DNA from: Rhizophagus irregularis
Taxonomy: Eukaryota; Glomeromycota; Glomeromycetes; Glomerales; Glomeraceae
Assembly: GCF_026210795.1 (NCBI RefSeq)
Contig: NC_089431.1
Coordinates: forward strand, 4,464,001 to 4,528,000
DNA length: 64,000 nt
Reading direction: 5' to 3'
The notes under the pieces were generated by a model. It was not told the DNA's origin. It did not search any database and saw only the letters and a program-made list of their open reading frames with translations. The stretch's first letter is position 1, and every line of letters starts with the position of its first letter. Made by a program: the position numbers and the translations under genes. This document shows, in pieces, positions 5,142 to 63,333 of this stretch.

Positions 5142-6730
5142 CTAAATATTAATCTGAAATACTTCATAGTCTTCTATAAAAAACTTATCTTCAGATTTTC
5201 TGATAGGTTTTTCATAGGATGACTTTTTACAATAACACTTATTAGCTCTTTTACCATCAATTATAAAGCAAGTTGCTCCTAATAATGTAAGATCACCTTC
5301 ACCAAATGATGGACACAATTTCTTTGAAAAATTTATGGCATGCTCTTTATCTTTTACTCTACTTAGAAGATAATTTTCAATACTTTCACTATTAGCAAAA
5401 GAAAATATAAAACTATCGTTAGTAACGCCAAAGTTCTCGGACTTCCATTCAATCGGATTATACCCTCCAAGAATTTCATCACTGTCTTTTACTTTAAAAA
5501 TTGATATAGTATGAGATTTGTCATCGCAATTTTTATGAAATCTATAACCTTTAAACCCATCCCGAGTTGCACGATAAATCAATTTAAATTCGTACAAATT
5601 TTTTGCCTTATCTGTAATTTCTAATATATCAATCCATTTTGAGATTAATTCAGCATGTTGTGTTGTAATAATTATCGAATCTATATTTATTGAATCAACA
5701 TTTGAAATTGATTCAATCTGTTTGTTTGAGTTGACACTCTCTGAACTGATTGTTTGGATCGTTTGAAGTGCGGCTGGCCTATAATCATGATTCAAAAAAA
5801 ATTTCAATGATTCCTTATATAATTCCTTTGGTAAAATTTTCTTATAAGGTAAAACTTTATCCATAAATTCTTTAGAAGACAAAGTAAAGAATTTAATAAA
5901 AGGAATACATTTGTGTATGGTATTCTTTAAAATATCGAAATCATCTTTTGAAAAGTTGGCAGGATCAGAAGGGAGTTCAGGATTTTGAGCGAGTCCCCAT
6001 TTAAGAACATTTTCCCAGACTTGAATTTCATTCATTTGAAGATTATCATGTCGAAGAAAAGAAATCAAAGTTTTCTCTGAAATTGAAGTAAAATCGAGTG
6101 AATTAAAAAAATTTTCCGGCTGTTTAGAAATTATTTCAGTACAAAACTTTTGAAGTTCTAAGAAAGAATCACTCTCAAAGCTAGTTTGATACATTAGAAC
6201 AAAATTTTGTTCAATCCAGTTTGCTTGGTTATCAATCAAAAATGATTGCGAATGGGGTATTAGTTCCTGAAGACTTAGTTCATTGGCAGCAACCATGATT
6301 TTAACAATATACGAAGCATCAAATTCTTCCAAAGAAAGTTTTCCTCCATAAATATATCTAATAAAAAAAGAAAAATTATTTTTTTATGAAATAGTTGAAA
6401 TAGTTACAATATATATATTTATATATGATAATTATATATTAAAATGAATATTTAAAATTTAATCCGTACTTACTTTAAAATTATTTGAAAAATTTCAGGT
6501 GAAATATTTGGTAATTTAATATGCGTTAACGTTCCATCATTCTTCTTTTTATTTGTTGACAAAATTCTTCTCAAATAAGGGGAACGATAATTTAAAATAA
6601 CCATGTGAGAACGAAATATTTGAACATAAGGGTCATTACCAACTTCTATTGTAACATCATAATATTCTTCATCACCTAAAATTTCGAGTAAATTTTGTGA
6701 TAATATTGGTAAAAATTTATTATCCGACAT
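5142..6730 (-). CDS. BTB-BACK-TLDc protein, 490 aa
   Basis: Two exons: 6730-6474 and 6357-5142. The 116-bp intron has donor GTAAGT and acceptor TAG, and splits a Lys codon (phase 2); the spliced length is exactly 491 codons. The ATG is the first in frame before the BTB motif (DEEYYDVTIEVG, residues 20-31). The BTB fold runs to about residue 110, BACK (NWIEQNF, VWENVLKWG) lies at about 130-240, a variable hinge spans about 282-312, and TLDc runs from about 315 to the end (DEILGGYNPIEW, PSFGEGDLTLL, IEDYEVFQI). By family analogy BTB/BACK modules adapt substrates to Cullin-3 ligases, and TLDc proteins act in oxidation resistance or bind V-ATPase. It is odd in having ATRDGF where all paralogs have [GR]SRDG[FL]. 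Closest paralog: 16831-18420. No function has been tested here. Confidence 0.93.
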
Positions 6731-6760
6731 AATGAATGAAATGGAAAATAAAGTTTTTTT

Positions 6761-6780
6761 TGCAGATCGACAGATCGTAT
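6761..6780 (-). promoter_or_regulatory. Shared upstream element, doubled copy
   Basis: On the minus strand this reads ACGATCTGTCGATCTGCAA, about 31 bp upstream of the ATG at 6730. The core GATCTGCAA matches the element upstream of the other array genes. It may be a promoter or transcription-start motif; this is inference from position and conservation. Confidence 0.5.
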
Positions 6781-6942
6781 CCGAATGTTTTGAATTTATA
6801 GTGTTACCTGCATCACGTGCTGTTACACAAACTTTTTTGTCCGAATTAAAAAATTAGAATACAGCATTTGTATAGTATATAGTACCAATTCTCATCCTAC
6901 TATTTACTTTACATTATAATGTATTAAGTCAAGGGATTCCTA

Positions 6943-7130
6943 CTCTATAAAAAATTTTATCCGTTATTTCTGTAAAAACTCCGTAAAAATGAGCCTTTCA
7001 CAGATCCATTCACGGAAATAAAATGTAAATAATTCGATAAATTCCGTGCTATAAGGTTATTAATTCCGGAAAGATGAGCTTTTACGGAAAAAGATGGAAT
7101 ATAAAAAACGGATCGACTTTTTTTACAGGG
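6943..7130. mobile_element. 188-bp MITE with CTA target duplication
   Basis: The ends are CTCTATAAAAAATTTTATCC and, read from the right, CCCTGTAAAAAAAGTCGATC, followed internally by inverted ccgtaaaaatgagc / ccgtaaaagctcat segments. CTA flanks both sides (6940-6942 and 7131-7133). The termini resemble the element at 34450-34681. Confidence 0.65.
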
Positions 7131-7133
7131 CTA

Positions 7134-16830: not shown

Positions 16831-18420
16831 TTAAATATTAATCTGAAATATTTCATATTCTTCTATAAAAAACTTATCTTCGGTTTTTCTGATAGGTTTT
16901 TCATAGGATGACTTTTTACAATGACACCTATCAAATTTCTGCACTAAATCACCACCACTAATCATTATAACTTCGGATAATGTAAGGTCACTTTTACCAA
17001 ATGATGGACCAAGTTTCTTCGAATAATTTATGGCATACTTTTTATCCTTCACTCTACTTAGAAGATAATCTTCATTATTTTCATTATTCATAAGGGAGAA
17101 TATAAAACTATCGTTAGTAATGCCAAAACCTCCAGATTTCCATTTAATCGGATTATACCCTCCAAGAATTTCATTACTACCTCGTACTTTAATAACTGTT
17201 ACGGTATTAGATTGATTATCACAAATGTTGTGAAATTTTTCAGAAGTCAATCCATCACGAGATCTACGAAAAATTAATTTAAATTCATATAATTTGTTTG
17301 CCTTATCTGTAATTTCTAATCTATCAATCCATTTTGAGATTAATTCAGCATGTTGGATTGTAATAATTTTCGAATCTATACTCATTGAACCATCTTTTGA
17401 AATTGATTCAATCTGTTTGTTTGAATTGACTATTGAATTAACGCCCCTTGAACTGATTGTTTTGATCGTTTGAGGTTCGGTTGGCATATAATCATGATTC
17501 AAAAAAATTTTCAATAATTCCTTATATAATTCCTTCGGTAAAATTTTCTTATATGGTAAAACTTTATCCATAAATTCTTTAGAAGACAAAGTAAAGAATT
17601 TAATAAAAGGAATAGATTGTTGTAAGGTATTCTTTAAAACATTGAAATCATCTTTTGAAAAGTTTGCAGGATCAGAAGGGAGTTCAGGATTTTGAGTGAG
17701 TCCCCATTTAAGAACATGTTCCCAGACTTGAATTCCATCCATTTGAAGATCATCATGTTGAATAAGAGAAATCAAAGTTCTCTCTGAAATTGAAGTAAAA
17801 TCGGGTGAATTAAAAATTTTTTCCGATTGTTTAGAAATTAATTCCGTACAAAACTTTTGAAGTTCTAAGAAAGAATCACTCTCAAAACTAGTTTGATACA
17901 TTGGAATAAAATTTTGTTCAATCCAGTCTGCTTGATTATTAATCAAAAATGATTGTGTATAGGGTATTAATTCCTGAAGATTTAGTTCACTGGCAGCAAC
18001 CAAAATTTTAACAACGTACGAAGCATCAAATTCTTCCAAAGAAAGTTTTCCTCCATAAATATACCTAAAAAAAAAAAGAAAAATTATTTTTTTTTATGAA
18101 ATAGTTACAAAATTATGTAAACTATATATTAAAATAAATATTTCTAATTTAATCTTTTCTTACTTTAAAATTATTTGGAAAATTTCAGGTGAAATATTTG
18201 GTAATTTAATATGTACTAACGTTCCATCATTCTTCTTTTTATTTGTTGACAAAATTTTTTTCAAATAAGGGGAACGATAATTTAAAATAACCATATGAGA
18301 ACGAAATATTTTAACATAAGGGTCGATACCAACTTCTATTGTAACATCATAATATTCTTCATCATCTAAAATTTCGAGTAAATTTTGTGATAATATCGGT
18401 AAAAATTTATTACCTGCCAT
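16831..18420 (-). CDS. BTB-BACK-TLDc protein, 496 aa
   Basis: Exons 18420-18164 and 18064-16831 flank a 99-bp intron (GTAAGA..TAG, phase 2); spliced length 497 codons. BTB (DDEEYYDVTIEVG near residue 19), BACK (DWIEQNF, VWEHVLKWG) and TLDc (NEILGGYNPIKW, GPSFGKSDLTL, IEEYEIFQI) are all present. The hinge is slightly longer than in its sister at 5142-6730 (extra GVNSIVNSNKQ). TLDc contains RRSRDGLTSEKFHNICD and a C-x-C pair (CHCKKSSYEKPIR) near the end. It is the recent duplicate of 5142-6730, and both sequences diverge most in hinge and TLDc. Confidence 0.93.
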
Positions 18421-20153: not shown

Positions 20154-21684
20154 TTATGATTTAATATTAATTTGAAATACTTCATATTCTTCAATAGAAA
20201 AATGATCGAAAGTATTTCTGATCTGCTTTTCATAAAAAAATTTTTTACAAAAATTGGTATTATTACAAAAAGAATCACTAGCGTAAAGGCCTCCAAATAC
20301 CGTGAGGTCACCAATACCAAATGATGGACCGTAATATGAAAAATAATTTACGGCATAGCTTTCATCTACTACTCGACTCAAAATATAATCATTAATATCT
20401 TCCTTAAAAGAAAATATGAAACTATTTTTAGTTTTACCATAATGTTTGATCGTACTTTTAGATTTAGAATCCCATTTAATCGGATTATATCCTCCAAGAA
20501 TTTCATTACTGTTTTTTACTTCAATAATTGTTACAGTATGAGATCGATTATCACAAATTTCATGGAACTTTTTAAATGTAAATCCGTCACGAGATCCTCG
20601 AAGAATTAATTCGAATTTATACAAATTGTTCAACTTGTTCGTGTTCTCTAATCTATCAATCCATTTTGAGATTAATTCAACATGTTGATTTGTAATGATT
20701 TTTGAATCAATATTCTCATTAGAATCAATTTCTTTGATTTCTTTGATTTTTCTATTTGATGGTCTATAATCATGATTAAGAAAAGTTTTCAATAGATCAT
20801 TATATAATTCTTCCGGTAAAACTTTTCGATAAGGAAATACACTATCCAAAAATTCTTTTGAGGTCAAATTATAAAATTTAATAAAAGAAATACATTGTTG
20901 TAAGGTATTCTTCAAAGTATTATAATTGTCGTTTGAATAGCTTGAAGGGTCTGAAGAAAGTTCAGGATTTTGACCAATACCCCATTTAAGAACATGTTCC
21001 CAAATTTGAACTTCCCTCATTTGAAGATTATCATGTTGAATAAGAGAGATTAATAAATTTTCTGAAATTGAAGTAAAATCAGTTGAATTAAAAATTTTTT
21101 CTGATTGTTTGGATATTAACTCTGTACAAAAATTTTGAAGTTCTGAGAAAGAATCATTTTCAAAGTACGTTCGAAATATAAAATTAAAATTTTGTTCAAT
21201 CCAGTCTGCTTTGTACTTAATTAAAAATAATTGAGTATTCGGAATTAATTCTTGAAGACCTAGTTCATTTGCGGCAATTAAAATTTTAACGATATCAGAA
21301 GCATCATATTCTTTATAAAGAATTATTCCTCCATAGATATACCTAAAATGAAAACGTTTATAAAATCATACAAAACAAATAATTGTTCACTAAATAATTT
21401 AAATATTGTTACCTTAAAATTATTTGAAAAATTTCAGGTAAAATGTTTGGTAATTTTATATGTGTTAAAGTCCCGTCACTTTTCTTTTTATTAGTTGACA
21501 AAATTCTTCTCAAATGAAAAGAACGATAATTTAAAATAGCTATATGAGCACGAAATATTTTTACGTGAGGATCATCACCAACTTCAATTGTAATATCATA
21601 ATATTCATCATCATCTAATATTTCAAGTAAATTTTGAGATAATTTTTGTAAATATACATAACGATCATTACGAAAACGAACCAT
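20154..21684 (-). CDS. BTB-BACK-TLDc protein, 486 aa
   Basis: Exons 21684-21413 and 21342-20154 with a 70-bp phase-2 intron (GTAACA..TAG); spliced length 487 codons. I chose the ATG at 21684 (MVRFRNDRYVYLQKLSQNLL) because the sequence just upstream belongs to an inserted inverted-repeat element. Exon 2 is open from the splice site through IILYKEYDASDIV, BACK (DWIEQNFNFIFRTYF, IWEHVLKWG), a short hinge (IKEIKEIDSNENI) and TLDc (RGSRDGFTFKKFHEICD, NEILGGYNPIKW, GPSFGIGDLTVFG, IEEYEVFQINI). A Lys-Ser pair precedes the stop. Family roles are as for the other array members. The leader is split by the element at 21698-22237, which may change its expression. Confidence 0.92.
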
Positions 21685-23363: not shown

Positions 23364-24901
23364 TTATCCTATATAAATCTGAAAAACTTCATATTCTTCT
23401 ACAGCAAAATCAACTTCAGCTTCTCTGATTTGTTTTTCATAAGATTTATTTATACAATAATTAGAACAATTACTAAAAGAATATTCAGGATTTAAAAGGT
23501 CTCCATATATTGTAAGGTCTCCACGACCAAATGATGGTCCATCATAAAGAGAATTATTTATAGCGTACTTTTCATCCTTCACCCGACTTAATATATGGTT
23601 TTTAATATCTTTCTTATTATTAAAAGAAAATATGAAACTATCTGTAGTCTTACTATATTCATTAGAAAATGCTTTACTGCACATTTTGGATTTCCACATA
23701 ATTGGATTGTACCCTCCGAGAATTTCCTCACTGCTTTTTACTTTGATAATTGATACAGTATGAGATTTATTATTACAAATTTCATGAAAATTTTCGGCCG
23801 TAAATCCATCACGAGACGAAGAATTAATTTAAATTCGTATGAATTTTTCAATTCATCTGTAAACTCTAGTCTGTCAATCCATTTGGAAATTAATTCAGCA
23901 TGTTAAATTGTAATGATTTTTGAATCTATGTATTTTAAACCAATTTCTTTAGTTTCTTTGATTGTCTGTGGCACCGACTTTTTACTTGGTTTATAATCAT
24001 TATCCAAAAAACATTTAATCAAATTTTCGTGTATCTCTTCAGGAATAATCTTTTTATATGGATACACTTTATTCAAGAATTCTTTAGAAGTAAATTCAGT
24101 AAATTTAATGAAAGGAATTATCTGTTGTACAGTATTTTTTAAGGCATTAAAATCATCGTTTGAATAATTTGAAGAATCCGAGGAAAGTTCAGGATTCTGA
24201 GCAATACCCCATTTAAGCACATGTTCCCAAATTTTAACTTCACTCATTTGAACATTATCAAGTTGAATAAGAGAGATTAAACTTTTTCCTGAAATTGAAG
24301 TAAAATCGGGTGAATTAAAAATTTTTTCCGGTTGTTTAGACATTAACTCCGTACAAAAATTTTGGAGTTCTGAGAAAGAATTATTTTCAAAGCTCGTTCG
24401 ATATATCAAGTTAAAATTTTGCTCAATCCAGTTTGTTTTGCTCTTAATCAAGAATAATTGAATATTCGGAATTAATTCTTGAAGTCCTAATTCACTTGCA
24501 GCAACTAAAATTTTAACGATATTAGAAGTATCATATTCTTCTAAAGTAAGTTTTCCCCCATAAATATACCTAAAATGAATCCGTTTAAAAATTAAATAAA
24601 AAAGAAAAATAATTTACTTATTTAGTTAATTTAATAATTCCTACCTTAAAATTGTTTGAAAAATATCAGGTAAAATATTTGGTAATTTTATATGTATTAA
24701 GGTTCCATCACTTTTCTTTTTATTAGTTGACAAAATTCTTCTCAAGTAAGGGGAACGATAATTTAAAATAACTATATGAGCACGAAATACTTTTACGTAA
24801 GGGTCATTACCAACTTCAATTGTAACATCATAATATTCTTCGTCATCTAATATTTCAAGTAAATTTTGTGATAATTTTTGAAAATATACATTACGAACCA
24901 T
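23364..24901 (-). pseudogene. BTB-BACK-TLDc pseudogene, near full length, two lesions
   Basis: Exon 1 (24901-24645) and the 75-bp intron (GTAGGA..TAG) are intact, and exon 2 from 24569 reads normally through BACK (NWIEQNFNLIYRTSF, IWEHVLKWG). In the conserved IITIQHAEL segment the Gln codon has become TAA (about 23903). About 80 bp further on, the conserved RGSRDGF codons have lost 4 bp, shifting the frame. The rest of TLDc is open again (SFIFSF, ILSRVKDEKYAIN, GPSFGRGDLTIYG, VEEYEVFQI) to a stop at 23364. With just two lesions, inactivation looks recent. A truncated BTB-BACK protein could still be made, so non-functionality is inferred. Confidence 0.88.
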
Positions 24902-26204: not shown

Positions 26205-27727
26205 TTAAGTAACTATAATCTGGAAAATTTCATATTCTTCTATGGCAAATTTATCACCAGTTTCTCTTATCTGTTTTTCATAGGATGATCTTTTACAATA
26301 ATTACCATAATCATGAAAAAAGTCTCCACAAATTACAAGGTCAGATATACCAAATGATGGCCCCAATGAAATACTATTATCTATGGCGTAATTTTCATTT
26401 TCCACCCGGCTTAAGATATGATTTTTAATATCAACCTTATTATTAAAAGAAAATATGAAACTATCTTTAGTTTTACTATAATCATAATCGCTAAAATCGT
26501 AGTCTCTAGATTCCCACATAATTGGATTGTACCCTCCAAGAATTTCATCACTGTTTTTTACTTTGATAATTGATACAGTATGAGATTTATCATCACAAAT
26601 TTCATGAAATTTTTCAGGCGTAAATCCATCACGAGATCCACGAAAAATTAATTTGAAATCATATGAATTTTTCAATTCATCTGTAATGTCTAATCTATCA
26701 ATCCATTTTGAGATCAATTCAGCATGTTGAATTGTAATGATTTTTGAGTCTATATTTTTTAGACTAATTTTTTTAGTTTCATTGATCGTCCGTTGTCCTG
26801 ACTTTTTACTTGGTTTATAATCATTGTCCAAAAAACAGCTAATCAAATTTTCATGTAGGTCTTCAGGAATAATCTTTTTATATGGGTACACCTTATTCAA
26901 GAATTCTTTAGAAGTAAATTCAGTAAAATTAATAAAAGGGATAAACTGTTGTAAAGTATTTTTTAAAACATTAAAATCATCGTTTGAATAATTTGAAGGG
27001 TCCGAAGAAAGTTCAGGATTCTGAGCAATACCCCATTTAAGCACATGTTCCCAAATTTGAACTTCACTCATTTGAACTTTATCTAGTTGGATAAGAGAGA
27101 TTAAAACTTTTTCTGAAATTGAAGTAAAATCAGGTGAATTAAAAATTTTATCCGGTTGTTTGGAAATTAATTCTGTGCAAAACTTTTGAAGGTCCAAGAA
27201 AGAGTCATTTTCAAAGCTTGTTTGATATATCGAGTTAAAATTTTGTTCTATCCATTTTGTTTTGTTTTTAATCAAGAATGATTGCAAATGGGGAATTAAT
27301 TCTTGAAGACTTAGTTCACTAGCAGCAACCAAAATTTTAACGACATACGAAGTATCATATTCTTCTAAAGTAAGTTCTCCCCCATAAATATACCTAAAAT
27401 AAAAAACCGTCGATAAAATTATAAATATAAATTATAAACAATAACTTGTCTACAACAATTAATTAAATACCTTAAGATTATTTGAAAAATTTCGGGTAAA
27501 ATACTTGGTAATTTAATATGCGTTAAAGTTCCATCATTTTTCCTTTTGTTAGTTGACAAAATTCTTCTCAAGTAAGGAGAACGATAATTTAAGATAACCA
27601 TATGGGCACGAAATACTTTTACGTAAGGATCGTTACCAACTTCAATTGTAACATCATAATATTCTTCGTCGTCTAAAATTTCGAGTAAATTTTGGGATAA
27701 TTTTGATAAAAGTAGTTCATTAGCCAT
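26205..27727 (-). CDS. BTB-BACK-TLDc protein, 481 aa
   Basis: Exons 27727-27471 and 27393-26205 join across a 77-bp intron (GTATTT..TAG, phase 2) to 482 codons. The ATG at 27727 (MANELLLSKLSQNLL) gives the same N-terminus length as its paralogs. BTB motif DDEEYYDVTIEVG, BACK motifs WIEQNFNSIYQTSF and IWEHVLKWG, a compact hinge (SKKSGQRTINETKKISLKN), then TLDc with FRGSRDGFTPEKFHEICDD, DEILGGYNPIMW, GPSFGISDLVICG and IEEYEIFQI. The segment between GGYNP and SFIFSF is Tyr/Asp rich (RDYDFSDYDYSKTKD) and differs in every paralog. Its closest relative is the pseudogene at 23364-24901, sharing DYKPSKKS in the hinge. Confidence 0.93.
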
Positions 27728-29598: not shown

Positions 29599-31185
29599 TT
29601 AAAATTTGATCTGAAATATTTCATATTCTTCTACAAAATATTTATCTACTGTATATCTGATCTTTTTATCATAAGAATTTTTTTTGCAATAACCAGTTCT
29701 ATTATTAAAGGTTTTAAGGTCTTCCCGACCAAATGATGGTCCAAATGAATAAAAATTATTTAACGCGTGTTTTTCATCCTCCACACGACTTAATATATGA
29801 TTTTTAATATTAAAAGAAAATATAAAACTATCTTTAGTTTTACTATATTCATTATTGGGAAGTAAAGATTGAAGATCATATTTAGATTGCCATGTAATCG
29901 GATTGTATCCTCCTAGAATTTCGTCACTATTCTCTACTTTAATTATTGTTATAGTGTGAGATTTATTATCACAAATTTCATGAAATTTTTCAGCCGTAAA
30001 TCCATCACGAGATCCTCGAAGAATTAATTCGAATTCATATAAATTTTTCAACTCATCTGTATTTTCTAATCTATCAATCCATTTTGAGATTAATTCAACA
30101 TGCTGATGCGTAATAATTTTTGAATCAATAATCTTAGCAGAACTGATTTCTCTGATTTCTTTAGTTTCTTTGATTTCCTTTGTTTCTTTAATCTCTTCCG
30201 TTTCACTGGTTTCTTTAATTTCTTTAGTTGATGGCCTATAATCATGATCAAGAAAAATTTTCAACAAATCATTATATAATTTGTCTGGCAAAATTTTTCG
30301 ATAAGGAAATATATTGTCCAAAAATTCTTTTGATGACAAATTATAAAATTTAATAAAAGGCATGCAATTTTGCAAGGTATTCTTTAGTTTGTTATAATCA
30401 TCATTTGAATAGTCTGAAAGATCTGAAGAAAGTTCAGGATTCTGAGCAATACCCCATTTAAGAACATGTTCCCAAACCTGAACTTCACTAATTTGAAGAT
30501 TATCATGTTGAATAAGAGAGATTAATGAATTTTCTGAAATTGAAATAAAATCAGATGAATTAAAAATTTTCTCCGGTCGTTGAGACATTAAATTAATACA
30601 AAAATTTTGAAGTTCTAAGAAAGAATCGCTTTCAAAGCTCGTTCGATATATCATGTTAAAATTTTGTTCAATCCAGTTCCTTTTTCTTTTAATCAAAAAT
30701 GATTGTATATCTGGAATTACTTCTTGAAGACCTAGTTCATTTGCCGTAACTAAAAGTTTAACGATATCGAAAGCATCATATTCTTTCAATAAAAGTATTC
30801 CTCCGTAGATATACCTAAAATGAAAATAATTAAAATAAAAATAAAATAATGTATTTGTTTTATTAATTAAAATTAAAAAATTTCTTAGTTACCTTAAAAT
30901 TATTTGAAAAATTTCGGGTAAAATGTTTGGTAATTTTATATGTGTCAAATTTCCATCACTTTTCTTTTTATTAGTTGATAAAATTTTTTTCAAATGAGGA
31001 GAACGATAACTTAAAATAACTATATGAGCACGAAATACTTTTGTGTGAGGGTCATCACCGACTTCTATTGTAACATCATGATATTCGTCGTCATCCAATA
31101 CTTCAAGTAAATTTTGAGATAATTTTTGTAAATGTTGTGGATATAAATTGCGATTATTACGAATACGATTACGATTACGAACCAT
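29599..31185 (-). CDS. BTB-BACK-TLDc protein, 502 aa, with KETKEI-repeat hinge
   Basis: Exons 31185-30893 and 30814-29599 flank a 78-bp phase-2 intron (GTAACT..TAG); spliced length 503 codons. The N-terminus is extended by an Arg/Asn stretch (MVRNRNRIRNNRNLYPQHLQ) before KLSQNLL. BTB, BACK (NWIEQNFNMIYRTSF, VWEHVLKWG) and TLDc (RGSRDGFTAEKFHEICD, DEILGGYNPITW, GPSFGREDLKTF, VEEYEIFQI) are complete. The hinge at about residues 285-320 is a repetitive Lys/Glu/Thr/Ile run (EEIKETKEIKETKEI), encoded by tandem gaaacaaaagaa-like DNA. A charged helix or flexible spacer is likely. The closest paralog is 40353-41957, with the same NRTGYCKKNSY-type C-terminus. Confidence 0.93.
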
Positions 31186-36741: not shown

Positions 36742-36751
36742 TTTTTTTTTT
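36742..36751 (+). terminator. Pol III terminator of the 5S gene
   Basis: A run of about ten T residues follows directly after the 3' end of the 5S gene, the usual RNA polymerase III stop. Confidence 0.9.
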
Positions 36752-40352: not shown

Positions 40353-41957
40353 TTATAATTTAACAATAATCTGAAATATTTCATATTCTTCTATTAAAAA
40401 TTTATCTACTGTACCTCTGATTTGTTTATTGTACGAATCTTTTTTGCAATAACCAGTTTTGTTATTATATATTATAAGGTCTTCACGACCAAATGATGGT
40501 CCAAATGAATAAAAATTTACTATGGCGTGGTTTTCATCCTCCACTCGACTTAATATACGATTTTTTTTATTTTCCTCATTATTAAAAGAAAATATAAAAC
40601 TATCTTTAGTTTTACTATGTTCGTAATTGGAAAAAGAAGGTCGTAGATATTTGGATTCCCATGCAATCGGATTGTATCCTCCTAGAATTTCACTACTGTC
40701 TTCTACTTTAATTATTGTAATAGTATGAGATTTATTATCACAAATTTCATGAAATTTGTCAGACGTAAATCCATCACGAGATCCACGAAAAATTAATTTG
40801 AGTTCATACAAATTTTTCGACTTGCCCGTAAGCTTTAATCCATTAATCCATTTTAAGATTAATTCAACATATTGATACGTAATAATTTTTGAATCAATAC
40901 TCTTATCAGAACCAATTTCTTTGATTTCTTTAGTTCCTTTGATTTCTTTAGTTTCTTTGATTTCATTTTCTTTGATTTCATTAGTTTCTTTGATTTCCTT
41001 TGTTTCTTTAATCTCTTTTGTTTCCTTAGTTTTTCTAGTTGATGGCCTATAATCATGATTAAGAAAATTTTTCAATAAATCAATATACAATTCTTCTGGT
41101 AAAAGTTTTCGATAAGGAAATATATTATCTAAAAATTCTTTTGAGGACAAATTATAAAATTTAATAGAAGGAACACATTGTTGCAAGGTATTCTTTAGAA
41201 TTTTATGATCATCATTCGAATAGCTTGAAAGATCTGAAGAAAGCTCATGATTCTGAGCAATACCCCATTTAAGTACATGTTCCCAAACCTGAATTTCACT
41301 CATTTGAAGATTATCATGTTGAATAAGAGAGATTAATAAATTTTCTGAAATTGAAGTAAAATCGGGTGAATTAAAAATTTTTTCTGGTTGTTTAGACATT
41401 AACTCTGTACAAAAATTTTGAAGTTCTAAGAAAGAATCATTTTCAAAGCACGTTTGAAATATAAAATTAAAATTTTGTTCAACCCAGTCTGTTTTATTTT
41501 TAATCAAGAATGATTGAATATTTGGAATTAATTCTTGAAGACCTAGTTCATCTGCGGCAACTAAAATTTTAACGATATCAGAAGTATCATATTCTTTCAA
41601 GGTAAGTCTTCCTCCATAAATATACCTAAAAAATGAAAGCATTTATAAAATTAAAAAAATTATTTATTTTATTAATTTAAAACTTTCCTACCTTAAAATT
41701 ATCTGAAAAATTTCAGGTAAAATATTTGGTAATTTTATATATGTTAAAGTTCCATCACTTTTCTTTTTATTAGTTGACAAAATTCTTCGTAAATGAGGAG
41801 AACGATAATTTAAAATAACTATATGAGCACGAAATATTTTTACGTAAGGGTCATCCCCGACTTCGATTATAACATCATGATATTCGTCGTCATCCAATAC
41901 TTCAAGTAAATTTTGAGATAATTTTCGTAAATATACATTACGAATATTATGAGCCAT
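40353..41957 (-). CDS. BTB-BACK-TLDc protein, 512 aa, longest KETKEI hinge
   Basis: Exons 41957-41692 and 41625-40353 join across a 66-bp phase-2 intron (GTAGGA..TAG) to 513 codons, the longest intact member. The start MAHNIRNVYLRKLSQNLL fits the paralogs. BTB (DDDEYHDVIIEVG), BACK (DWVEQNFNFIFQTCF, VWEHVLKWG) and TLDc (FRGSRDGFTSDKFHEICD, SEILGGYNPIAW, GPSFGREDLIIY, IEEYEIFQI) are complete. The hinge, about residues 285-325, is a run of KETKEIKETKEI, NEIKEN and KGTKEI units, encoded by tandem 12- to 18-bp DNA repeats (tttctttgatttctttagt on the plus strand). The length differences against 29599-31185 are whole codons, so repeat slippage has kept the frame. Confidence 0.93.
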
Positions 41958-42009: not shown

Positions 42010-43302
42010 CCATCGTCGGATAAATAAGACCGATTCCAAATTTAACGATGATCATTCCCATTTTTAATTGGGAATTTATATTTAACGAACTACGCAAGGT
42101 GATACAAAATGCGCGGAACGTGAGTATGTTTTCGGCTAATTTTGTGTTTGAAATTCATTAATTACATTAAGTACCTCTGTTAAAAAAGTTTTGTATGTCA
42201 TAATTATAGTTCGTTTTTAATACCTTTATTATTGGTACGTTGACTAGAAATCAATTCATGATAGATTTCAATTAGCCTGTTTTCAGGAATAATTTCTTAA
42301 AAGCTGAATGAATATGATTGTGATTTTAAAGTGGTATGACATTTCTATATATATCAGTAACAATGATTATTGATTTCCAGATACTAAACATTCATTCCTT
42401 TTTTTTCCTCTCATTTTAAAAAGTTTAATATAAGCAGAAAATTATTATATTTATTTTTTCTTCCTTCCTTCCTTCCTTCCTTTCTTATTTAATTTTTAAA
42501 TATAATAACTTTTTTTTTAGTGATGTATACTAATAATCTTTCAAATTCATATCCTCATGTTCTTAAAAAGCAATAAAGATAATGAGTATCATATTCTAAA
42601 TTTTTACATTCAGATTCATTAGAAACTTAAAAATAAAATAATTATTTACCCATTTCTCTTGGAACGAGTTTTATTGAATGAATCTTTACGGCTTGATTAA
42701 AAGGAATAGAGATCAAAAGTTGTTCATGAAAACTTCATAATCCGCCATATATTAACTTATTAATTTACTATTTTAATTAAAGACAATAACTGTTTCGAAG
42801 AACATATTCAGGAATCAGGAAGTAACCCTTTTTGCTAAATTTATATTATAAATATTAGTTATTCTCTCTTTATCTTTTCCGTATTGTACGTATTGTAATA
42901 AATTTGTGGTTTTTGTTTATCTATTACATGTTGTTCACCCTTCTTAGTTCGATGTATTATAAAAGCACAATAAAATTTTGTTATCCGTTATTATTTATTA
43001 GCTTATTGCAGAAACAATTTCGTGATTACTTTTAAATTGATTTGAAATATCAGATCTATGTTTCATTAATCTATATATTCATTTTATTAGTAAATCCGTT
43101 AGTTATTTATTAAAAATATTGAAATATGAACTTTTATAAAAAAATTTATTCCTAGAACCGGATAAAAAATTTTTTTCAGGTCATATTAATAAAATCAATT
43201 GCCAAGAAATGAAAACAAACTAACACAAATTTTTATTTTTTATAATATTATAAACTAAAAATTTATAAATAATTATTTGTAACTGTTTTAATCAATTATT
43301 CT
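42010..43302. other. AT-rich spacer with (TTCC)n microsatellite
   Basis: ttccttccttccttccttcc lies at about 42461-42482. The part from about 42850 resembles the 3' flanks at 25700 and 48830. No gene is seen. Confidence 0.55.
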
Positions 43303-43475
43303 GTATTATCTGAAAAACTTCATATTCTTCTACAGAAAAATTATCCCTAGTTTCTCTGATCTGCTTTTCATAAGATCCTCTTTTGCAATAACTAGAGAGG
43401 ATCTAAGACCTCCACAAATTTTAAGGTCCTTACGACCAAATGATGGCCCATAATGAAGATAATTATCTATGGCGT
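43303..43475 (-). pseudogene. TLDc C-terminal remnant
   Basis: Read on the minus strand it gives the end of a TLDc domain (AIDNYLHYGPSFGRKDLKI, then a break, SYEKQIRETRDNFSVEEYE, VFQI). There is a frameshift near 43400, and everything upstream of the GPSFG region is missing. The left-hand flank resembles other gene 3' flanks, so a full gene once stood here. Its upstream side is cut off by the repeat-rich region beginning at 43478. Confidence 0.85.
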
Positions 43476-43477
43476 TT

Positions 43478-48302: not shown

Positions 48303-48822
48303 TCATGATTTTGAGCAATGCCCATTTAAGAATGAGTTCCCAAATTTGGACTTCATTCATTTGATGAACAACATGTTGAATAATAGAGATCAATGAATTT
48401 CTAAACTCAGCCAATCAGGTGAATTGATATTAACTCTGACCGGCCGTTGGCATTCCTAGTACTACTATGACCTTTTACTCTTTAATAATCATTTTTCAGC
48501 TCATTTGGTGGATTAGGCCAAAATTTTCTCCATCCATGCAAAACTAATAAACTTAATTCACTGGGATTTTAATGATATTTAGGGTATCATATTCTATCAC
48601 AGAAATTCTTCCGCCATAAATATATCAATACCAAACCGTGAATTATTTACTGTATATAATGAATTATTTATCATCTTAAAATTGTTTGAACATTTTCATG
48701 TAGAATACAGTAATTAGTAATTTAATATGTGTTGAAGTTCCATCATTTTCCTTTTTATTAGTTGATAACATTTCCTTTAAATAGGTTTAAAATAACTATA
48801 TGAGCGCGAAATATAGGATCAT
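48303..48822 (-). pseudogene. Highly decayed BTB-BACK-TLDc remnant
   Basis: A BACK piece (48303-48430: WELILKWALLKIMI-like, QMNEVQIWELILKW) is followed after about 130 bp of diverged sequence by the exon-2 start (YIYGGRISVIEYDTLNI-like at 48545-48625) and an exon-1 piece (48670-48822: GTSTHIKLL, FRAHIVILNL). All pieces are on the minus strand in gene order, with many indels and stops. Hinge and TLDc are absent. Confidence 0.8.
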
Positions 48823-49262
48823 TCCATATATTAGATCATTCCATATATTAATCTTTTTTCACTCTTCTTAGATCGAATATATTAACATAACACATTGACA
48901 CAGAGAAATCTTGTTATCTATTGATTATTAGCTTATTTCAGAAAATAATTCCGCTTATTGTGTTAAATTGGCTTATTGAACGTAGTATTGACATAACTTA
49001 TAATTCAATTATACTTCGTTCTTCCTATCCCATTTTATTGATAAAATAAGTTACAAAAATACTGAAATATAAACTTTATAAATACGATGCATTTATAAAA
49101 AATAATATTCCTAGTATTAAAACTGGAAAAAAGAATTATTTCACGGCATAATAAAATCTATTGTCAAAAAATGGAAACAAACTAACACAAATTTTACTTT
49201 TAATGATATCATAAAAAAAAAAAATTTAAAATATAAAATATTATTATTTGTAAATGTTCTAG

Positions 49263-50769
49263 TCAATTATCACGTACTATCTGAAAAACTTCATATTCTT
49301 CTACAGAAAAAACATCTTCAGTTTCTCTGATCTGCTTTTCATAAGATGCTCTTTTATTATAAGAGGATTCAAAGCCTTCACGAAATTTAAGGTCCTCACG
49401 ACCAAATGATGGTCCATATGAATAATAATTATCTATAGCGTATTTTTCTTCCACCACCCGGCTTAATATATGATTTTTAATATCTTTCTTATTGTTAAAA
49501 GAAAATATGAAACTATCTTTAGTTTCACCATATTCACAATTAGATATTGAAATGTAAATAGATTTCCACACAATCGGATTATATCCTCCAAGAATTTCAT
49601 TACTATCGTCGACTTTAATTATTGATATAGTATGAGATTTATTATCACAAATTTCATGAAATTTTTCAGCCGTAAATCCATCACGAGATCCACGAAGAAT
49701 TAATTTGAATTCATATGAATTTTTCAATTCATCTGCAATCTCCAATCTATCAACCCATTTTGAGATCAATTCAGCATGTTGAATTGTAATGATTTTTGAG
49801 TCTATGTTTTTAAGACTAATTTTTCTAGTTTCTTTGATTGTTTGTTGTTCTGACTTTTTACTTGGTTTATAATCATTGTCCAAGAAACATTGAATTAAAT
49901 TTTCATATAGATCTTCAGAAATAATCTTTCTGTATGGGTACACCTTACTCAAGAATTCTTTTGAAGCAAATTCAGTAAATTTAATTAAAGGAATAAATTG
50001 CTGTAAAGTATTTTTTAAAGCATTAAAATCATCATTTGAATAACTTGAAGGATCCAAGGAAAGTTCAGGATTCTGAGCAATACCCCATTTAAGCACATGC
50101 TCCCAAATTTGAACTTCACTCATTTGAACTTTATCAAGTTGAATAAGAGAGATTAATACTTTTTCTGAAATTGAAGTGAAACTAGAAGAATTAAAAATTT
50201 TTTCTGGTTGTTTAGATATTAATTCTGTGCAAAACTTTTGGAGATCCAAGAAAGAATCATTTCCGAAACTCGTTTGATATATTAGATTAAAATTTTGTTC
50301 TATCCAATTTTCTTTATTTTCAATCAAAAATGATTGTAAATGGGGGACTAATTCCTGGAGACTTAGTTCATTAGCAGCGACCAAAATTTTAATGATATCC
50401 AAAGTATCATATTCTACCAAAGAAATTTTTCCACCGTAAATATATCTAGAAATAAAATTCTCAAAAAATTAAAAATAATTTTACAAAATATATCTTATAG
50501 CAATTAGATTAATACCTTAAAATTATTTGAAAAATTTCAGGTAAAATGTTTGGTAATTTAATATATAATAAAGTTTCATCATTTTTCTTTTTATTTGTTG
50601 ACAAAATTCTTCTCAAGTATGAAGAACGATAATTTAAAATAACCATATGGGCACGAAAAACTTTTACGTGAGGGTCATTACCAACTTCAATTGTAATGTC
50701 ATAATATTCATCGTCATCTAAAATTTCGAGAAAATTTTGCGATAATTTTGACAAAAATTTATCAGTCAT
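49263..50769 (-). CDS. BTB-BACK-TLDc protein, 478 aa
   Basis: Exons 50769-50516 and 50445-49263 flank a 70-bp phase-2 intron (GTATTA..TAG); spliced length 479 codons, the shortest intact copy. The start MTDKFLSKLSQNFLEI is chosen by paralogy; the frame continues upstream without an ATG-supported domain. BTB (DDDEYYDITIEVG), BACK (NWIEQNFNLIYQTSF, IWEHVLKWG) and TLDc (RGSRDGFTAEKFHEICD, NEILGGYNPIVW, GPSFGREDLKFREG, VEEYEVFQI) are complete. It alone lacks the Cys that precedes SYEKQIR in all other intact copies (here YNKRASYEKQIR). Sister gene: 57755-59332, with almost identical exon 1. Confidence 0.93.
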
Positions 50770-54134: not shown

Positions 54135-55697
54135 TTAAATATCTTTTGCAATTTGAAATATTTCGTATTCTTCTATAGTATATTCACCATCAGTTTTCCT
54201 GATTGGAATTTCGTAATTAGCATTACTACAATAACAATAGTTAAATTTTCTGTCGGTGTTGTCCGTCGAAGGTGAACCTTGAAACGTATTTATTAACTTA
54301 TTAATTTTTTTCACAACATTATTACTATACACTACTATATTGATGTCCCCATCGCCAAATGATGGTCCATAATTCCAATAATTATTTATAGCATGTTTTT
54401 CATCTTTCACGCGACTTAAAATATAATTATCATTATTTTTAAAAGAAAATATAAAACTATCTTTAGTAATCCCATAACTACTATCAGATTTCCATTCAAT
54501 CGGATTATATCCTCCAAGAATTTCATTACTATCTTTCACTTTAATAATTGTTATAGTATGAGATTTATTATCGCAAATTTCATGAAATTTTTCAGGCGTA
54601 AATCCATCACGAGATCCACGAAGAATTAATTTGAACTCATATGAATTTTTCAATTCATCTGCAATACCTAGCCTATCAATCCATTTTGAGATTAATTCAG
54701 CATGTTGACGCGTAATAATTTTTGAATCAATATTGTTAGGCTTAACTTCTTTTTTGATTATCTGTGGTTCAGATTTTTTATTCGGTTTATAGTCATTATC
54801 CAAAAAAGATTTTACTAAATCTTCATTTAACTCGTCAGGAATAATCTTTTTATACGGATATACCTTATTCAGAAATTCTTTAGAAGTAAATTCAGTAAAT
54901 TTAATTAAAGGAATAATTTGTCGTAAAGTATTTTTTAAAGCGTTAAAGTCATCATTTGAATAACTTGAAGGATCCGAAGAAATTTCAGGATTCTGAGCAA
55001 TACCCCATTTAAGAACATGTTCCCAAACTTGAACTTCACTTATTTGATTACCATTATGTTGAATAAGAGAGATTAAAGCCTTTTCTGGAATCGAAGTAAA
55101 ATCAGAAGAATTGAAAATTTTTTCTGGTTGTTTAGATATTAATTCTGTGCAAAATTTTTGGAGCTCCAAGAAAGAATCATTTTTGAAGCTCGTTTTATAT
55201 ATAAAGGCAAAATTTTTCTCCACCCATTTTGTTTCATTTTTAATCAAAAACAATTGTAAATAAGGAATTAACTCTTGAAGATTAAGTTCACTAGCAGCAA
55301 CCAAGATTTTAATGATATCTAAAATATCATAATTTACAAGAGAAAGTCTTCCGCTATAAATATACCTAAATAAAAAAAACAATCAATAAAAAAAAAAATT
55401 TTATAGAACAATAACTTAACTATAGAAATTAATTTAATACCTTAAAATTATTTGAAATGTTTCAGGTGAAATATTTGGCAATTTAATGTGTGCTAAAGTT
55501 CCATCGTTTTTCCTTTTATTAGTTGATAAAATTCTTCTCAAATAAGACGAACGATAATTTAATATAACCATATGAGCGCGAAAAATTTTTACGTGAGGGT
55601 CTTTACCAACTTCAATTGTAATGTCATAATATTCTTCATCGTCTAAAATTTCGAGTAAATTTTGAGTCAATTTTGATAAAAATTTATTATCGGCCAT
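54135..55697 (-). CDS. BTB-BACK-TLDc protein, 495 aa, with TLDc insertion
   Basis: Exons 55697-55441 and 55365-54135 join across a 75-bp phase-2 intron (GTATTA..TAG) to 496 codons. The start is MADNKFLSKLTQNLLEI. BTB (DDEEYYDITIEVG), BACK (KWVEKNFAFIYKTSF, VWEHVLKWG), a short hinge (NKKSEPQIIKKEVKPN) and TLDc (RGSRDGFTPEKFHEICD, NEILGGYNPIEW, GPSFGDGDINIV, IEEYEIFQI) are present. Between GPSFGDGD and the final Cys block there is an extra stretch of about 25 residues (SNNVVKKINKLINTFQGSPS and following), not seen in other members. The Cys block is CYCSNANYEIPIR. Sister gene in the other unit: 61786-63333, sharing PETFQ in exon 1 and FQI[AT]KD near the end. Confidence 0.92.
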
Positions 55698-55733: not shown

Positions 55734-55799
55734 CACCGACACCTTTTATAAAAGGCACGGTGTGGCAGTTGTGCAACTAGGGCGATCCAGAATGACGGT

Positions 55800-57754: not shown

Positions 57755-59332
57755 TTACTTAATAATACTATAAATAAAAATTTTCAAAAAATAGTTAAAT
57801 ACCTCATTAGTATCTTTTATAATCTGAAAAACTTCATATTCTTCTATCGCAAAATAATTACCAGTTTTTCTTATCGGCTTTTCATAAGATGATCTTTTGC
57901 AATAACTAAAATGCTTATTAAAAGAGTTTCCACCAATTTTAAGGTCATTACGACCAAATGATGGTCCACATGAACAATCATTATCTATAGCGTATTTTTC
58001 TTCCTCCACCCGGCTCAATATATGATTTTTAATATCTTTCTTATTGTTAAAAGAAAATATGAAACTATCTTTAGTTTTACTATATTCACCATCAGATCCT
58101 GGAATGTAAGTTCTAGATTCCCACATAATCGGATTATATCCTCCAAAAATTTCATTAGTATCTTTCACTTTAATAATTGATATAGTATGAGATTTATTAT
58201 CACAAATTTCATGAAATTTTCGAGGCGTAAATCCATCGCGAGATCCACGAAGAATTAATTTGAATTCATATGAATTTTTCAATTCATCTGTAATCTCTAA
58301 TCTATCAATCCATTTTGAGATCAATTCAGCATGTTGAATTGTAATGATTTTTGAGACTATGTTTTTTAGACTAATTATTTTAGTTTCTCTGATTGTTTGT
58401 TGCTCTGACCTTTTCCTTGGTACATAATCATGATCCAAAAAATATTTGACTAAATTTTCACACATCTCATCAGGAATAATCTTTTTATACGGATACACCT
58501 CATTCAGGAATTCTTTAGAAGTAAATTCAGTAAATTTAATTAAAGGAATAAATTGTTGTAAAGCATTTTTTAAAACATTAAAATCATCATTTGAATAACT
58601 TGAAGGATCTGACGAAAGTCCAGGATTTTTTGCAATACCCCATTTAAGTACATGTTCCCAAATTTGAACTTCACTCATTTTAATTTTATCATGCTGAATA
58701 AGAGAGATTAAAGCTTTTTCTGAAATTGAAGTGAAATCAGGTGAATTAAAAATTTTTTCTGGTTGTTTAGATATTAATTCTGTGCAAAACTTTTGGAGAT
58801 CCAAGAAAGAATCATTTTCGAAACTCGTCTGGTATATTAGATTAAAATTTTGTTCTATCCAATTTTCTTTATTTTCAATCAAAAATGATTGTAAATAAGG
58901 GATTAATTCCTGGAGACTTAGTTCATTAGCAGCGACCAAAATTTTAATAATATCCAAAGTATCATATTCTATCAAAGAAATTTTTCCACCGTAAATATAT
59001 CTAAAAATAAATTCTCAAAAAAATTAAAAATAATTTTACAAAATATATCTTATATATATAGAAATTAGATTCTAATACCTTAAAATTATTTGAAAAATTT
59101 CAGGTAAAATGTTTGGTAATTTAATATGTGTTAAAGTTTCATCATTTTTCTTTTTATTTGTTGACAAAATTCTTCTCAAGTATGAAGAACGATAATTTAA
59201 AATAACCATATGGGCACGAAAAACTTTTACGTGAGGGTCATTACCAACTTCAATTGTAATGTCATAATATTCGTCGTCATCTAAAATTTCAAGGAAATTT
59301 TGCGATAATTTTGACAAAAATCTATCAGCCAT
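57755..59332 (-). CDS. BTB-BACK-TLDc protein, 499 aa, with C-terminal extension
   Basis: Exons 59332-59079 and 59000-57755 flank a 78-bp phase-2 intron (GTATTA..TAG); spliced length 500 codons. The start is MADRFLSKLSQNFLEI. BTB (DDDEYYDITIEVG), BACK (NWIEQNFNLIYQTSF, IWEHVLKWG), hinge (PRKRSEQQTIRETKIISLKN) and TLDc (RGSRDGFTPRKFHEICD, NEIFGGYNPIMW, GPSFGRNDLKIGG, IEEYEVFQI) are complete. GGYNP is preceded by IF where others have IL. Past FQIIKDT the frame runs on for about 19 residues (NEVFNYFLKIFIYSIIK), where paralogs stop. This may be a lost stop, or a donor (GAG|GTATTT) for an unseen intron. Confidence 0.92.
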
Positions 59333-59470: not shown

Positions 59471-59479
59471 TCAAATTAG

Positions 59480-60215: not shown

Positions 60216-60219
60216 TTCA

Positions 60220-61320
60220 CCTGATTTGTGTTGAAGTAAATATAATTTAGTTAAATTCACTGGTTCTGAAATATTTTTGAAATTTAAAAGTCTGGTTGTA
60301 TAAATGGCTTGTGGATGTGTTAGACTTCAAATATTTCATTTTCATTTGACTGGTTCTTTAATTTATTTGTCTTAATTTTTTCAACATCCTTTATTTGAGC
60401 ATAAAATTTACCAAAATTATCTTTCAGTTTTTTTTAAAAATTTGTTATATTTCTTTAGAAGTTGATCTATTCTCTACTTTAGCACCCCAACATTTAATAA
60501 TCGACATATATTTATTTATTATTATTCCAAATGAATAAATGTCTGCAACCATTGTATACTGATAACTACATATAGCAGTTATAGCACGTAAGGTAATACC
60601 CCATAAATTCCTTTTTCAATCGATCGCTTTTCATTATTGATGATTGAAACATTCCTAAATCATTAATAAATGGATAATATTACTACGATATAATATATTG
60701 TTTGAATGAGAAGCTTTATGAATTTTTCCAGCATTGAAGCCTATTGGCAATTTTTTTTAAACTAGTTTGTTTGATAATCCAAGAAAAATTTATTTAGTAT
60801 TTGGATCTTGAGTTATTCCGTAACATTTGGTTATAACCGAAAAATTACCCGAGATATAAGGTTTAACATTATTGGATCCTAATACACAAATATACAAAAA
60901 TAAGTTTTTAAATATAATAAAATTTTTATTTATTACCCATTTAAAAATTCCGTACTTATATCTGAAGAATTGTCTAAGCTTTTTAATGAAACTTTTGATA
61001 CTTTTTCTTTGCCATCTTTGACTTTCAGTATCTCAAAATTTGATATACACTTCAAGCCAGCAAGTTGGATAAATTTTGCTAAACCCTCCACTGGTAATAA
61101 AAGTAGTATTTTTGAAAACGTCAAAAAAAGGAATCCACTCAAGACATTTTCTAGGATGTACAGTATTGAGTTGTAACTTCAATTTAATTTATCAATAATT
61201 TTATTTCACTTGTCCATTTTTTAAAGTTCACTTAAACCTTTTAGTATTACAAAGTTGACACCATCTTTATCTTGTGCTTGGTTTATTGCATTCGCCACAT
61301 ATTCCATATACTATGTTTAT
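60220..61320 (-). pseudogene. Protein kinase pseudogene with N-terminal CxxC segment
   Basis: On the minus strand, near 61310: YGICGECNKPST and WCQLCNTKRF, the double Cys-pair N-terminus of AM-fungal kinases. Then KCLEWIPFFDVFKNTTFITS and GGFSKIYP (glycine-rich loop), and LKSLDNSSDISTEFLNG ending at a donor (GGTAATAA near 60930). After a short intron the C-lobe remains as degraded pieces (YTMVADIYSFGIIINKYMS near 60530). Many stops and frameshifts exist. It is the counterpart of 52025-52985. Confidence 0.8.
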
Positions 61321-61785
61321 TATTATATAAAAGATAAATTATTTTGTGAATAACGACAAACCTGAAAATGTTGCTACGTTTTAATGATATTTAAAACCTT
61401 ACAAACTTCAAAAAAATCAAATTTTTAGTGGAACATTGCAGTTAAATAATTAACAAGTAAAAATGACAACGTTTTATTGTTATAACCAAAAATCAAGAGA
61501 TTTGCGTAATTAATTGTGCTCTGGTATTAATGTTTATTATTTAGTTTATGTTTTACGAGGGATTACGATTTACGACCCGGTTAAAATTTATAGTAATACT
61601 CTATAAAAAAAGTAAAAGCTTGTAAAATTTATTATAAGAATTTTGTAATAGTTAATTAATAAATAAATAACTATAAAACATGAATGTAATAATAAATTTT
61701 AAAAAAAATTCCTTTAATTTCTAATTCAATAATTTAAAACAATGTGTTTTAACCCTAATAAGTAAATAAACCCATCTATTGTAAA

Positions 61786-63333
61786 CTATTTATTAATTTT
61801 TTGTGAAAATGTATAAGTATCTTTTGTAATTTGAAATATTTCGTATTCTTTTATAGTATAACCATTTCCTGTTTCTCTGATCGCGTTTACATAAGAATAT
61901 TTTTTACAATAACAGTGATTAAAATCTTTTTTGGAGCTAGAAAATAAATAGTTGCTTTTTATTATAAGGTCACCATAACCAAACGATGGTCCATAATTCA
62001 AATTATGAAATAAAGCTTTATTTTCCTCTTTCACACGACTTAAAATATAATCATCAATATCATTATTTTTAAAAGAGAATATAAAACTATCTTTAGTATT
62101 CCCATAACTATCATCAGATTTCCATTCAATCGGATTAAATCCTCCAAGAATTTCTTCACTACCTTCCACTTTAATAACAGTTATAGTACAAGATCTACTA
62201 TCACAATTTTCATGAAATTTTTCAGGTGTAAATCCATCACGAGATCCACGAAGGATTAATTTGAACTCATATGAATTTTTCAATTCATTTGTAATATCTA
62301 GCCTATCAATCCATTTTGAGATTAATTCAGCATGTTGAATTGTAATAATATTTGAATCAATATTTTTTAAATCAATATCTCTAGTTTCATTCTGTTCTGA
62401 ATTTCTATTTGGTATATAATCACGATTCAAAAAGTATTTGATTAAATATTCATTAGTTTCATCAGGAATAATCTTTTTATACGGATCATATACCTTATTC
62501 AGAAATTCTTTAGAAGTAAATTCAGTAAATTTAATTAAAGGAATAAATTGTTGTAAAGTATTTTTTAAAGCGTTAAAATCATCATTTGAATAACTTGAAG
62601 GATCTGAAGAAAGTTCAGAATTTTGAGCAATACCCCATTTAAGCACATACTCCCAAACTTGAACTTCACTCATTCGAAGATTATCATGTTGAATAAGAGA
62701 GATTAAAGCTTTTTCTGAAATCGAAGTAAAATCAGGTAAATTAAAAATCTTTTCAGGATGGTTAGATATTAACTCTGTACAAAAATTTTGAAGTTTTGAT
62801 AAAGAATTATTTTCAAAACTCGTTTGGTAAATCGAGCAAAAATTTTGTTCCAACCAGCTCGTTTTGTTTACAATTAAGAATGATTGTAAATGAGGAATTA
62901 ATTCATAAAGATTTAATTCACTAGCAGCAATCAAAATTTTAATGACATCCGAAGTATCGTGTTCTGCCAAAGAAAGTCTTCCGCCATAAATATACCTAAT
63001 TTAAAAATCGATGATAAGAAAATTAAAAATAATTTTATAAAACGATAATTTGTTTATAAAAAAATGAGTTTAATACCTTAACATTACTTGAAAAGTTTCA
63101 GGTAAAATATTTGGTAATTTAATATGAGTTAAAGTTCCATCATTTCTCCTTTCATTAGTCGACAAAATTCTTTTCAAATAAGGAGAACGATAATTTAAAA
63201 TAACCATGTGAGCACGAAAAATTTTTACGTGAGGGTCAATACCAACTTCAATTGTAATATCATAATATTCTTCGTCATTTAAAATTTCGAGTAAATTTTG
63301 AGACAAATTTGGTAAAAATTTATTATCAGCCAT
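61786..63333 (-). CDS. BTB-BACK-TLDc protein, 488 aa
   Basis: Exons 63333-63077 and 62995-61786 join across an 81-bp phase-2 intron (GTATTA..TAG) to 489 codons. The start is MADNKFLPNLSQNLLEI. BTB (NDEEYYDITIEVG), BACK (SWLEQNFCSIYQTSF, VWEYVLKWG) and TLDc (RGSRDGFTPEKFHENCDS, EEILGGFNPIEW, GPSFGYGDLIIKS, IKEYEIFQI) are complete. GGFNP replaces GGYNP. The Cys block is CYCKKYSYVNAIR. A C-terminal tail (KDTYTFSQKINK) follows FQI. The hinge is short (NRNSEQNETRDIDLKN). It is the sister of 54135-55697. Confidence 0.93.

Follow-up and report, generated by a model that had tools for sequence, protein, structure and literature searches.

What does a fungal genome do with a dense run of related adaptor-like genes, and which part of the encoded protein is changing? 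The question is raised by a 64-kb stretch of the genome of the root symbiont Rhizophagus irregularis (C3:4464001-4528000, contig NC_089431.1; the whole stretch is called the window below), which carries a tandem array of genes encoding BTB, BACK and TLDc domains, with a hinge as a further variable part. We found that purifying selection maintains BTB-BACK and that TLDc, while conserved in its fold and core residues, diversifies at fixed, mostly C-terminal loop sites and by changes in loop length. Through gene conversion or recombination, parts of the genes are reshuffled among copies. There is, in our judgment, an even chance that the array encodes a repertoire of two-part recognition proteins that evolves by birth and death, with a constant BTB-BACK and a variable TLDc reader.

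The genome searched comprised 146,748,485 bases in 32 contigs. We scored 150 of 986 candidates from a TLD family search, which gives no family total, and chose 80 higher-scoring loci among them; drawn from the listed matches, these are biased toward intact copies. A two-exon model was obtained for 74 of the 80, with identical intron phase in each, while at three loci a BTB exon was present without a clean model resulting (L017, L057 and L073) and in three no BTB exon was found (L047–L049). Five of 86 gene models were dropped for length (w23903, L016, L040, L046 and L085), leaving 81 proteins. From their tree, two clades were picked by eye: clade A with 22 genes, including the 11 intact genes of the window, and clade B with 38 others, none from the window; 21 of the 81 proteins belong to neither. 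Residues are numbered according to gene 11 of the window (61786..63333, 488 amino acids).

Variation was unevenly spread along the proteins. Among the 11 window proteins, mean amino-acid diversity rose from BTB (0.24) through BACK (0.30) and TLDc (0.38) to the hinge (0.51), and the pairwise ratio of nonsynonymous to synonymous divergence (dN/dS) was, in the same order, 0.30, 0.29, 0.47 and 0.48. Over 32 close pairs, the ratio was 0.35–0.56 in segments within BTB, about 0.87 over the hinge and 1.04–1.08 in those between residues 381 and 460. Length varied across the 81 proteins in the hinge and at 377–389, 393–404 and 425–454, with little variation at 407–421 and none in three N-terminal TLDc loops; core TLDc residues, including G370, G371, F424, Y454 and E471, were identical in all 81 intact proteins. 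A preliminary description of the window had placed the divergence in the hinge, between the GGYNP and SFIFSF motifs and near GPSFG, and diversity, pair ratios and loop lengths all agreed. Its proposal of constant coupling and variable recognition held insofar as BTB and BACK are constrained and hinge and TLDc are the most variable parts, but calling BTB almost constant is an overstatement at a diversity of 0.24, and gene-wide dN/dS was below 1 in every domain. The hinges of two minus-strand genes (30144-30226 and 40915-41040) contain short tandem repeats of period 9 and its multiples that encode KETKEI-like units, and hinge length may thus change through repeat slippage; these were the only tandem repeats with a bearing on the array.

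To evaluate selection, we fitted site models with our own code; nucleotide trees supplied the relative branch lengths, which were held fixed under one common scale, so that the P values are approximate. For TLDc, the comparison of M8 with M8a gave P = 0.032 for the 11 window genes, P = 4.7e-8 (omega 2.2) for clade A and P = 3.6e-5 (omega 1.4) for clade B. The same comparison gave P ≥ 0.29 in all six tests of BTB and BACK, while M7 versus M8 was nominally significant in four of six runs on these two domains (P = 0.014–0.05). Eight TLDc sites exceeded 0.9 in clade A and 27 in clade B, and all eight recurred among the latter (hypergeometric P = 2.8e-7). When sites chosen in one clade were evaluated in disjoint close pairs of the other, the ratio of nonsynonymous to synonymous differences (pN/pS) was 1.48 (5–95% bootstrap 1.17–1.92; 15 pairs) in one set and 1.43 (1.12–1.83; 17 pairs) in the second, with BTB at 0.52 and 0.43 in those two sets. 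In the 13 closest pairs, pN/pS was 0.53 in BTB and 0.57 in BACK, which indicates that the copies are maintained. According to M8/M8a and these pair counts, the excess of amino-acid change thus lies in TLDc, with BTB and BACK showing none, although models with a free silent rate and unweighted counts, described below, disagree.

The genes are mosaics, as their domain trees reject one another. Among the 11 window genes, the BTB, BACK and TLDc trees were mutually rejected in all six cross-comparisons (approximately unbiased test, P ≤ 0.0056), and the BTB-BACK and TLDc trees likewise reject each other in clades A and B. The pairwise homoplasy index test gave P = 0.001, a signal to which unequal rates in different parts of the gene may contribute. 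In gene 6 (at 31463), BTB-BACK belongs to one group with support of 100 and TLDc to another with a low support of 56. Silent divergence was higher in the C-terminal TLDc part than in BTB in 28 of 32 disjoint close pairs and uneven along the gene (P < 0.05) in 11 of the 32; since silent divergence is raised there as well, the contrast between BTB and TLDc is partly due to recombination. Two results go beyond the preliminary description: mosaicism throughout the family, and TLDc sites that are fast in both clades alike.

The 11 intact two-exon genes on the minus strand that had been described earlier were confirmed by six-frame searches, splicing and Pfam, and the four decayed minus-strand copies by six-frame searches. 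Counting the pieces on the plus strand, the window holds 16–17 traces of BTB-BACK-TLDc. They are listed by window position; each intact gene is based on searches, splicing and Pfam.

4534..4611, plus strand: possible remnant, a weak match (19 bits) to the pre-TLDc stretch and TLDc start
5142..6730, minus strand: intact gene 1, intron 6358-6473
16831..18420, minus strand: intact gene 2, intron 18065-18163
20154..21684, minus strand: intact gene 3, intron 21343-21412
23370..24901, minus strand: decayed copy, BTB exon and BACK open, frame broken where the TLDc part begins
26205..27727, minus strand: intact gene 4, intron 27394-27470
29599..31185, minus strand: intact gene 5, intron 30815-30892
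31463..33067, minus strand: intact gene 6, intron 32706-32801
33270..33780, minus strand: decayed copy, TLDc pieces (six-frame searches)
34028..34365, plus strand: decayed fragment, BACK end and TLDc start, absent from the earlier list
40353..41957, minus strand: intact gene 7, intron 41626-41691
43298..43476, minus strand: decayed copy, TLDc end only (six-frame searches)
48316..48829, minus strand: decayed copy, BTB and BACK pieces (six-frame searches)
49263..50769, minus strand: intact gene 8, intron 50446-50515
54135..55697, minus strand: intact gene 9, intron 55366-55440
57755..59332, minus strand: intact gene 10, intron 59001-59078
61786..63333, minus strand: intact gene 11, intron 62996-63076

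All 11 intact genes have a single GT-AG intron of 66–116 nt in the identical place and in phase 2, flanked by a conserved L(R/K) closing exon 1 and YIY(G/S)G after it. Pfam detected BTB, BACK and TLD in each at E ≤ 0.001 and in a common order, the scores of member 1 (66.7, 63.6 and 33.9 bits, respectively) all exceeding the curated cut-offs; no other domain was found in the 11 proteins, neither an additional effector domain nor MATH. Homology extends only a short way past the gene ends, reaching at most about 370 nt ahead of the start codon and 171 nt past the stop. Two flank-homology values of 1500 were set aside, as the flanks of the two neighboring genes concerned overlap. Searches of the window for composition and tRNAs gave nothing relevant to the array.

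The array accounts for only a small share of a much larger genomic family. The codon signature of the TLDc motif GGYNP occurs at 849 sites in the genome in comparison with 12 for a reversed control, giving about 840 TLDc sites, and at 12 sites in the window, where about 0.4 would be expected at the genome average; with such an excess at both scales, the array is not due to chance. From the GGYNP sites listed for contigs C1–C3, we drew 20 with their score disregarded and called a site intact by profile coverage in a single frame, with splicing outside the criterion. At least part of a BTB exon was present at 16 of these sites, and 13 had both a BTB exon and a second exon covered in a single frame, leaving seven that did not look intact. 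Rough scaling from this small three-contig sample suggests approximately 500 intact genes genome-wide.

The one-strand arrangement noted earlier applies to all 11 intact genes and the four decayed copies, but one decayed fragment and one weak match lie on the plus strand, and the order is only local. The window is one section of a longer region: between 3.90 and 4.53 Mb of C3, the minus strand carries 40 of 45 listed GGYNP sites (binomial P = 8e-8, a value that is too small as neighboring duplicates are nonindependent and the interval was chosen by eye), while the region just before, at 3.74–3.84 Mb, has five listed sites on the plus and four on the minus strand. In the 81-protein tree, the window genes form three local groups, consisting of those at 5142 and 16831; those at 20154, 29599, 31463 and 40353; and those at 26205, 49263, 54135, 57755 and 61786. 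Copies from two other contigs (L060 on C1 and L061 on C6) fall, along with C3 neighbors, in the set that is sister to the third group, in a tree without support values. Together, the local groups and the C1 and C6 copies suggest that most window copies were probably born nearby and that some movement between chromosomes took place. No relatives were confirmed in viral contigs or in bacterial and archaeal genomes.

If BTB-BACK is the constant half of the protein, it may serve as a hub that forms a dimer and probably docks to Cullin-3 (CUL3), the partner suggested in the preliminary description. The best fold matches of the BTB-BACK model were KBTBD2 and KLHL11, several of them in CUL3 complexes, and its best PDB match by sequence was gigaxonin. 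The proteins have the layout of CUL3 adaptors, BTB-BACK followed by a C-terminal reader, as judged from the KBTBD2-CUL3 and KLHL11-CUL3 matches and the position of TLDc after BACK. The genome also contains three neighboring CUL3-like loci at C8:2628369-2641458 (L001, L002 and L005); one exon of L002 matches Cullin-3 at 6.2e-28, and the other two loci are alike by eye only. The TLDc loops would then bind many different or fast-changing partners, and a partner so bound would be ubiquitylated.

The TLDc model (mb6cf6cc808a2) matched 11 TLDc entries in the PDB with Z of 10.5–13.1, the next row being at 5.0; the entries represent NCOA7, OXR2, TBC1D24, mEAK7, Oxr1 and Rtc5, several of which were solved on V-ATPase. 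Both structure models are of middling confidence (mean predicted local distance difference test scores of 66.8 and 65.0; 65 for TLDc). A sequence profile built from the 11 TLDc domains did not retrieve any TLDc structure, and we therefore relied on comparing folds and on L049, an mEAK7-like gene that served as a bridge. Of the eight contacts of mEAK7 TLDc with V-ATPase given in PMC9263379, four were used: G276 aligns to G340, which is kept in 79 of the 81 proteins, H277 to 341, and P316 and Q317, which contact subunit A, to 381 and 382. Site 381 passes 0.9 in both clades and 382 in clade B, an overlap that is suggestive only, as exposed loops vary in most proteins. The remaining contacts were discarded: Y367 fell at L429 with unreliable placement, Y341 and T354 lay in alignment gaps and K384 was outside the stretch used. 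L049 and two further TLDc genes, L047 and L048, are those in which no BTB exon was found; L049 is mEAK7-like by sequence, and we read L047 and L048 as putatively Rtc5-like.

Several results weigh against a repertoire of adaptively diversifying CUL3 adaptors. When the synonymous rate was left free at the chosen sites, omega dropped to 0.55 in the clade A data and 0.49 in the clade B data, both significantly below 1, and the fitted silent rate at these sites was raised 2.0- and 2.9-fold; when the silent rate was shared, the clade A data gave an omega of 1.00, which does not exceed 1, and the clade B data one of 1.47 (P = 0.00015). A count over five window pairs gave 0.99 (0.75–1.35) without the transition weighting that was applied in the later disjoint-pair count. 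The fast change could thus partly reflect imported divergence or loose constraint, and the simple statement that TLDc is under positive selection is weakened. The motif phi-X-(D/E) in the alpha3-beta4 loop is suggested as a key determinant of CUL3 binding in PMC6484134, where it is also described as not absolutely required in A55. Its phi-X-E form was found in none of the 11 window loops and, in a scan for E only, in just four of 74 readable loops among the 81 proteins (three VNE, and one VFE beyond the loop); phi-X-D was absent on reading the alignment of the 11. With this defining motif missing, we do not file the family as CUL3 adaptors: the genome has a CUL3-like gene, but the canonical motif is absent from the 11 proteins, and docking is a fair guess and not a finding, the coupling being unproven. 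Adaptive selection on TLDc sites is likely but not proven. In our reading, the diversification at fixed TLDc sites is real and driven partly by the exchange of divergent pieces and probably, although this is not proven, by selection.

Much of this could also be produced by genomic drift in a duplicating family: the majority of copies would do little that is specific, TLDc would simply be less constrained, and divergent pieces would be moved about by gene conversion. The gene-wide dN/dS below 1 in all domains, the omega of about 0.5 that a free silent rate yields at the fast sites and the raised silent divergence in TLDc all suit this explanation, as do the decay of four of the 15 minus-strand copies and the seven of 20 unselected genome sites that are not intact. 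We nevertheless regard drift as doubtful: the low pN/pS of BTB and BACK in the closest pairs indicates maintenance, the same few TLDc sites are fast again in a separate clade, and the invariant TLDc core differs from that of a decaying domain. Another explanation, which we consider unlikely, is that the proteins are diversified V-ATPase regulators, with every TLDc still gripping V1 and BTB-BACK dimerizing or recruiting a ligase to V-ATPase. The fold matches to proteins solved on V-ATPase and the near-invariant G340 at the G276 contact agree with it, and PMC8608904 reports that five mammalian TLDc proteins interacted with V-ATPase while the isolated TLDc domains of Tbc1d24 and Tldc1 did not. 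However, the P316 and Q317 contacts align to variable sites, the genome retains TLDc genes in which no BTB exon was found, one of them mEAK7-like, and hundreds of variable partners are not obviously needed for one V-ATPase.

Allorecognition systems typically show tandem, mosaic loci with diversified loops. The array shows the features expected of such a self/non-self set, used when hyphae of differing strains meet, but Pfam finds no additional effector domain in the 11 proteins and other functions would yield the same pattern; we consider this explanation very unlikely. Returning to the repertoire of two-part recognition proteins, we advance a more specific version tentatively: an intracellular recognition repertoire of about 500 intact genes might have adopted TLDc, a domain known until now for gripping V-ATPase, as its variable reader. 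Gene conversion would swap readers among BTB-BACK backbones, and the loops that face V-ATPase in mEAK7 would serve as the specificity surface against foreign or rapidly changing proteins.

The closest parallel is found in nematodes. According to PMC4334554, which cites earlier work, the MATH-BTB and F-box adaptors of Caenorhabditis elegans form large families with birth and death of copies and show excess amino-acid change in the substrate-binding and not the Cullin-binding domain. By analogy, the BTB-BACK-TLDc family may work in a similar design, with TLDc replacing the reader: it is likewise large, its copies are born and die and the reader domain shows the excess by M8/M8a and pair counts, though not with a free silent rate or by unweighted counts in five window pairs. 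It differs in having TLDc in place of MATH and a BACK domain and in belonging to an arbuscular mycorrhizal fungus; relative to both nematode families, it shows clear mosaicism between parts and lacks the usual Cullin motif, and its omega above 1 is contested by the free-silent-rate model. The architecture and fold of BTB-BACK are shared with the BTB-BACK-Kelch CUL3 adaptors KLHL11, KBTBD2 and gigaxonin, whereas the C-terminal domain is TLDc and not Kelch and phi-X-(D/E) is missing in the window proteins. With Oxr1, Rtc5, NCOA7 and mEAK7, the family shares the TLDc fold and the near-invariant glycine at mEAK7 G276, but here TLDc is fused to BTB-BACK and present in hundreds of copies, and the P316/Q317 loop is variable.

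High-copy BTB/POZ, Kelch, Sel1 and kinase genes in R. irregularis, with tandem arrays of expanded families, are reported in PMC8647823, and the BTB-BACK-TLDc genes are very probably the same genes counted there under BTB/POZ; TLD is not mentioned in its main text. The literature searched, which left most subscription journals outside so that priority cannot be claimed, contained no domain-level account of BTB-BACK-TLDc in R. irregularis and no paper joining TLDc with Rhizophagus irregularis or TLD and BTB with arbuscular mycorrhizal. Arbuscular mycorrhizal fungi have many BTB genes, and if a large block of these is a mosaic, reader-diversifying adaptor repertoire, the reason for their number becomes testable: the constant parts are known and the variable sites, among them 381, 417, 418, 426, 432, 452, 457 and 464, are defined, with CUL3 and V-ATPase from the fungus itself as the two obvious baits. 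If true, the family would be an independent fungal case of the nematode MATH-BTB pattern and a new use of the TLDc fold.

The window contains other features besides the array. Open frames at 9560-10942 on the minus strand are coiled-coil-like by eye, with no Pfam match in the two scanned, and a partial protein kinase-like gene at 2398-2877 (plus strand) retains the domain end only (PF07714, E = 1e-11). Open frames of a hAT-type transposase lie at 13775-15587 on the plus strand, opposite to the BTB-BACK-TLDc genes, the second frame containing the C-terminal dimerization region (PF05699, E = 5.6e-12). Inside the array, a gap separating two intact BTB-BACK-TLDc genes holds two RNA genes on the plus strand, one for 5S rRNA at 36625-36743 and one for U2 spliceosomal RNA at 37773-37924.

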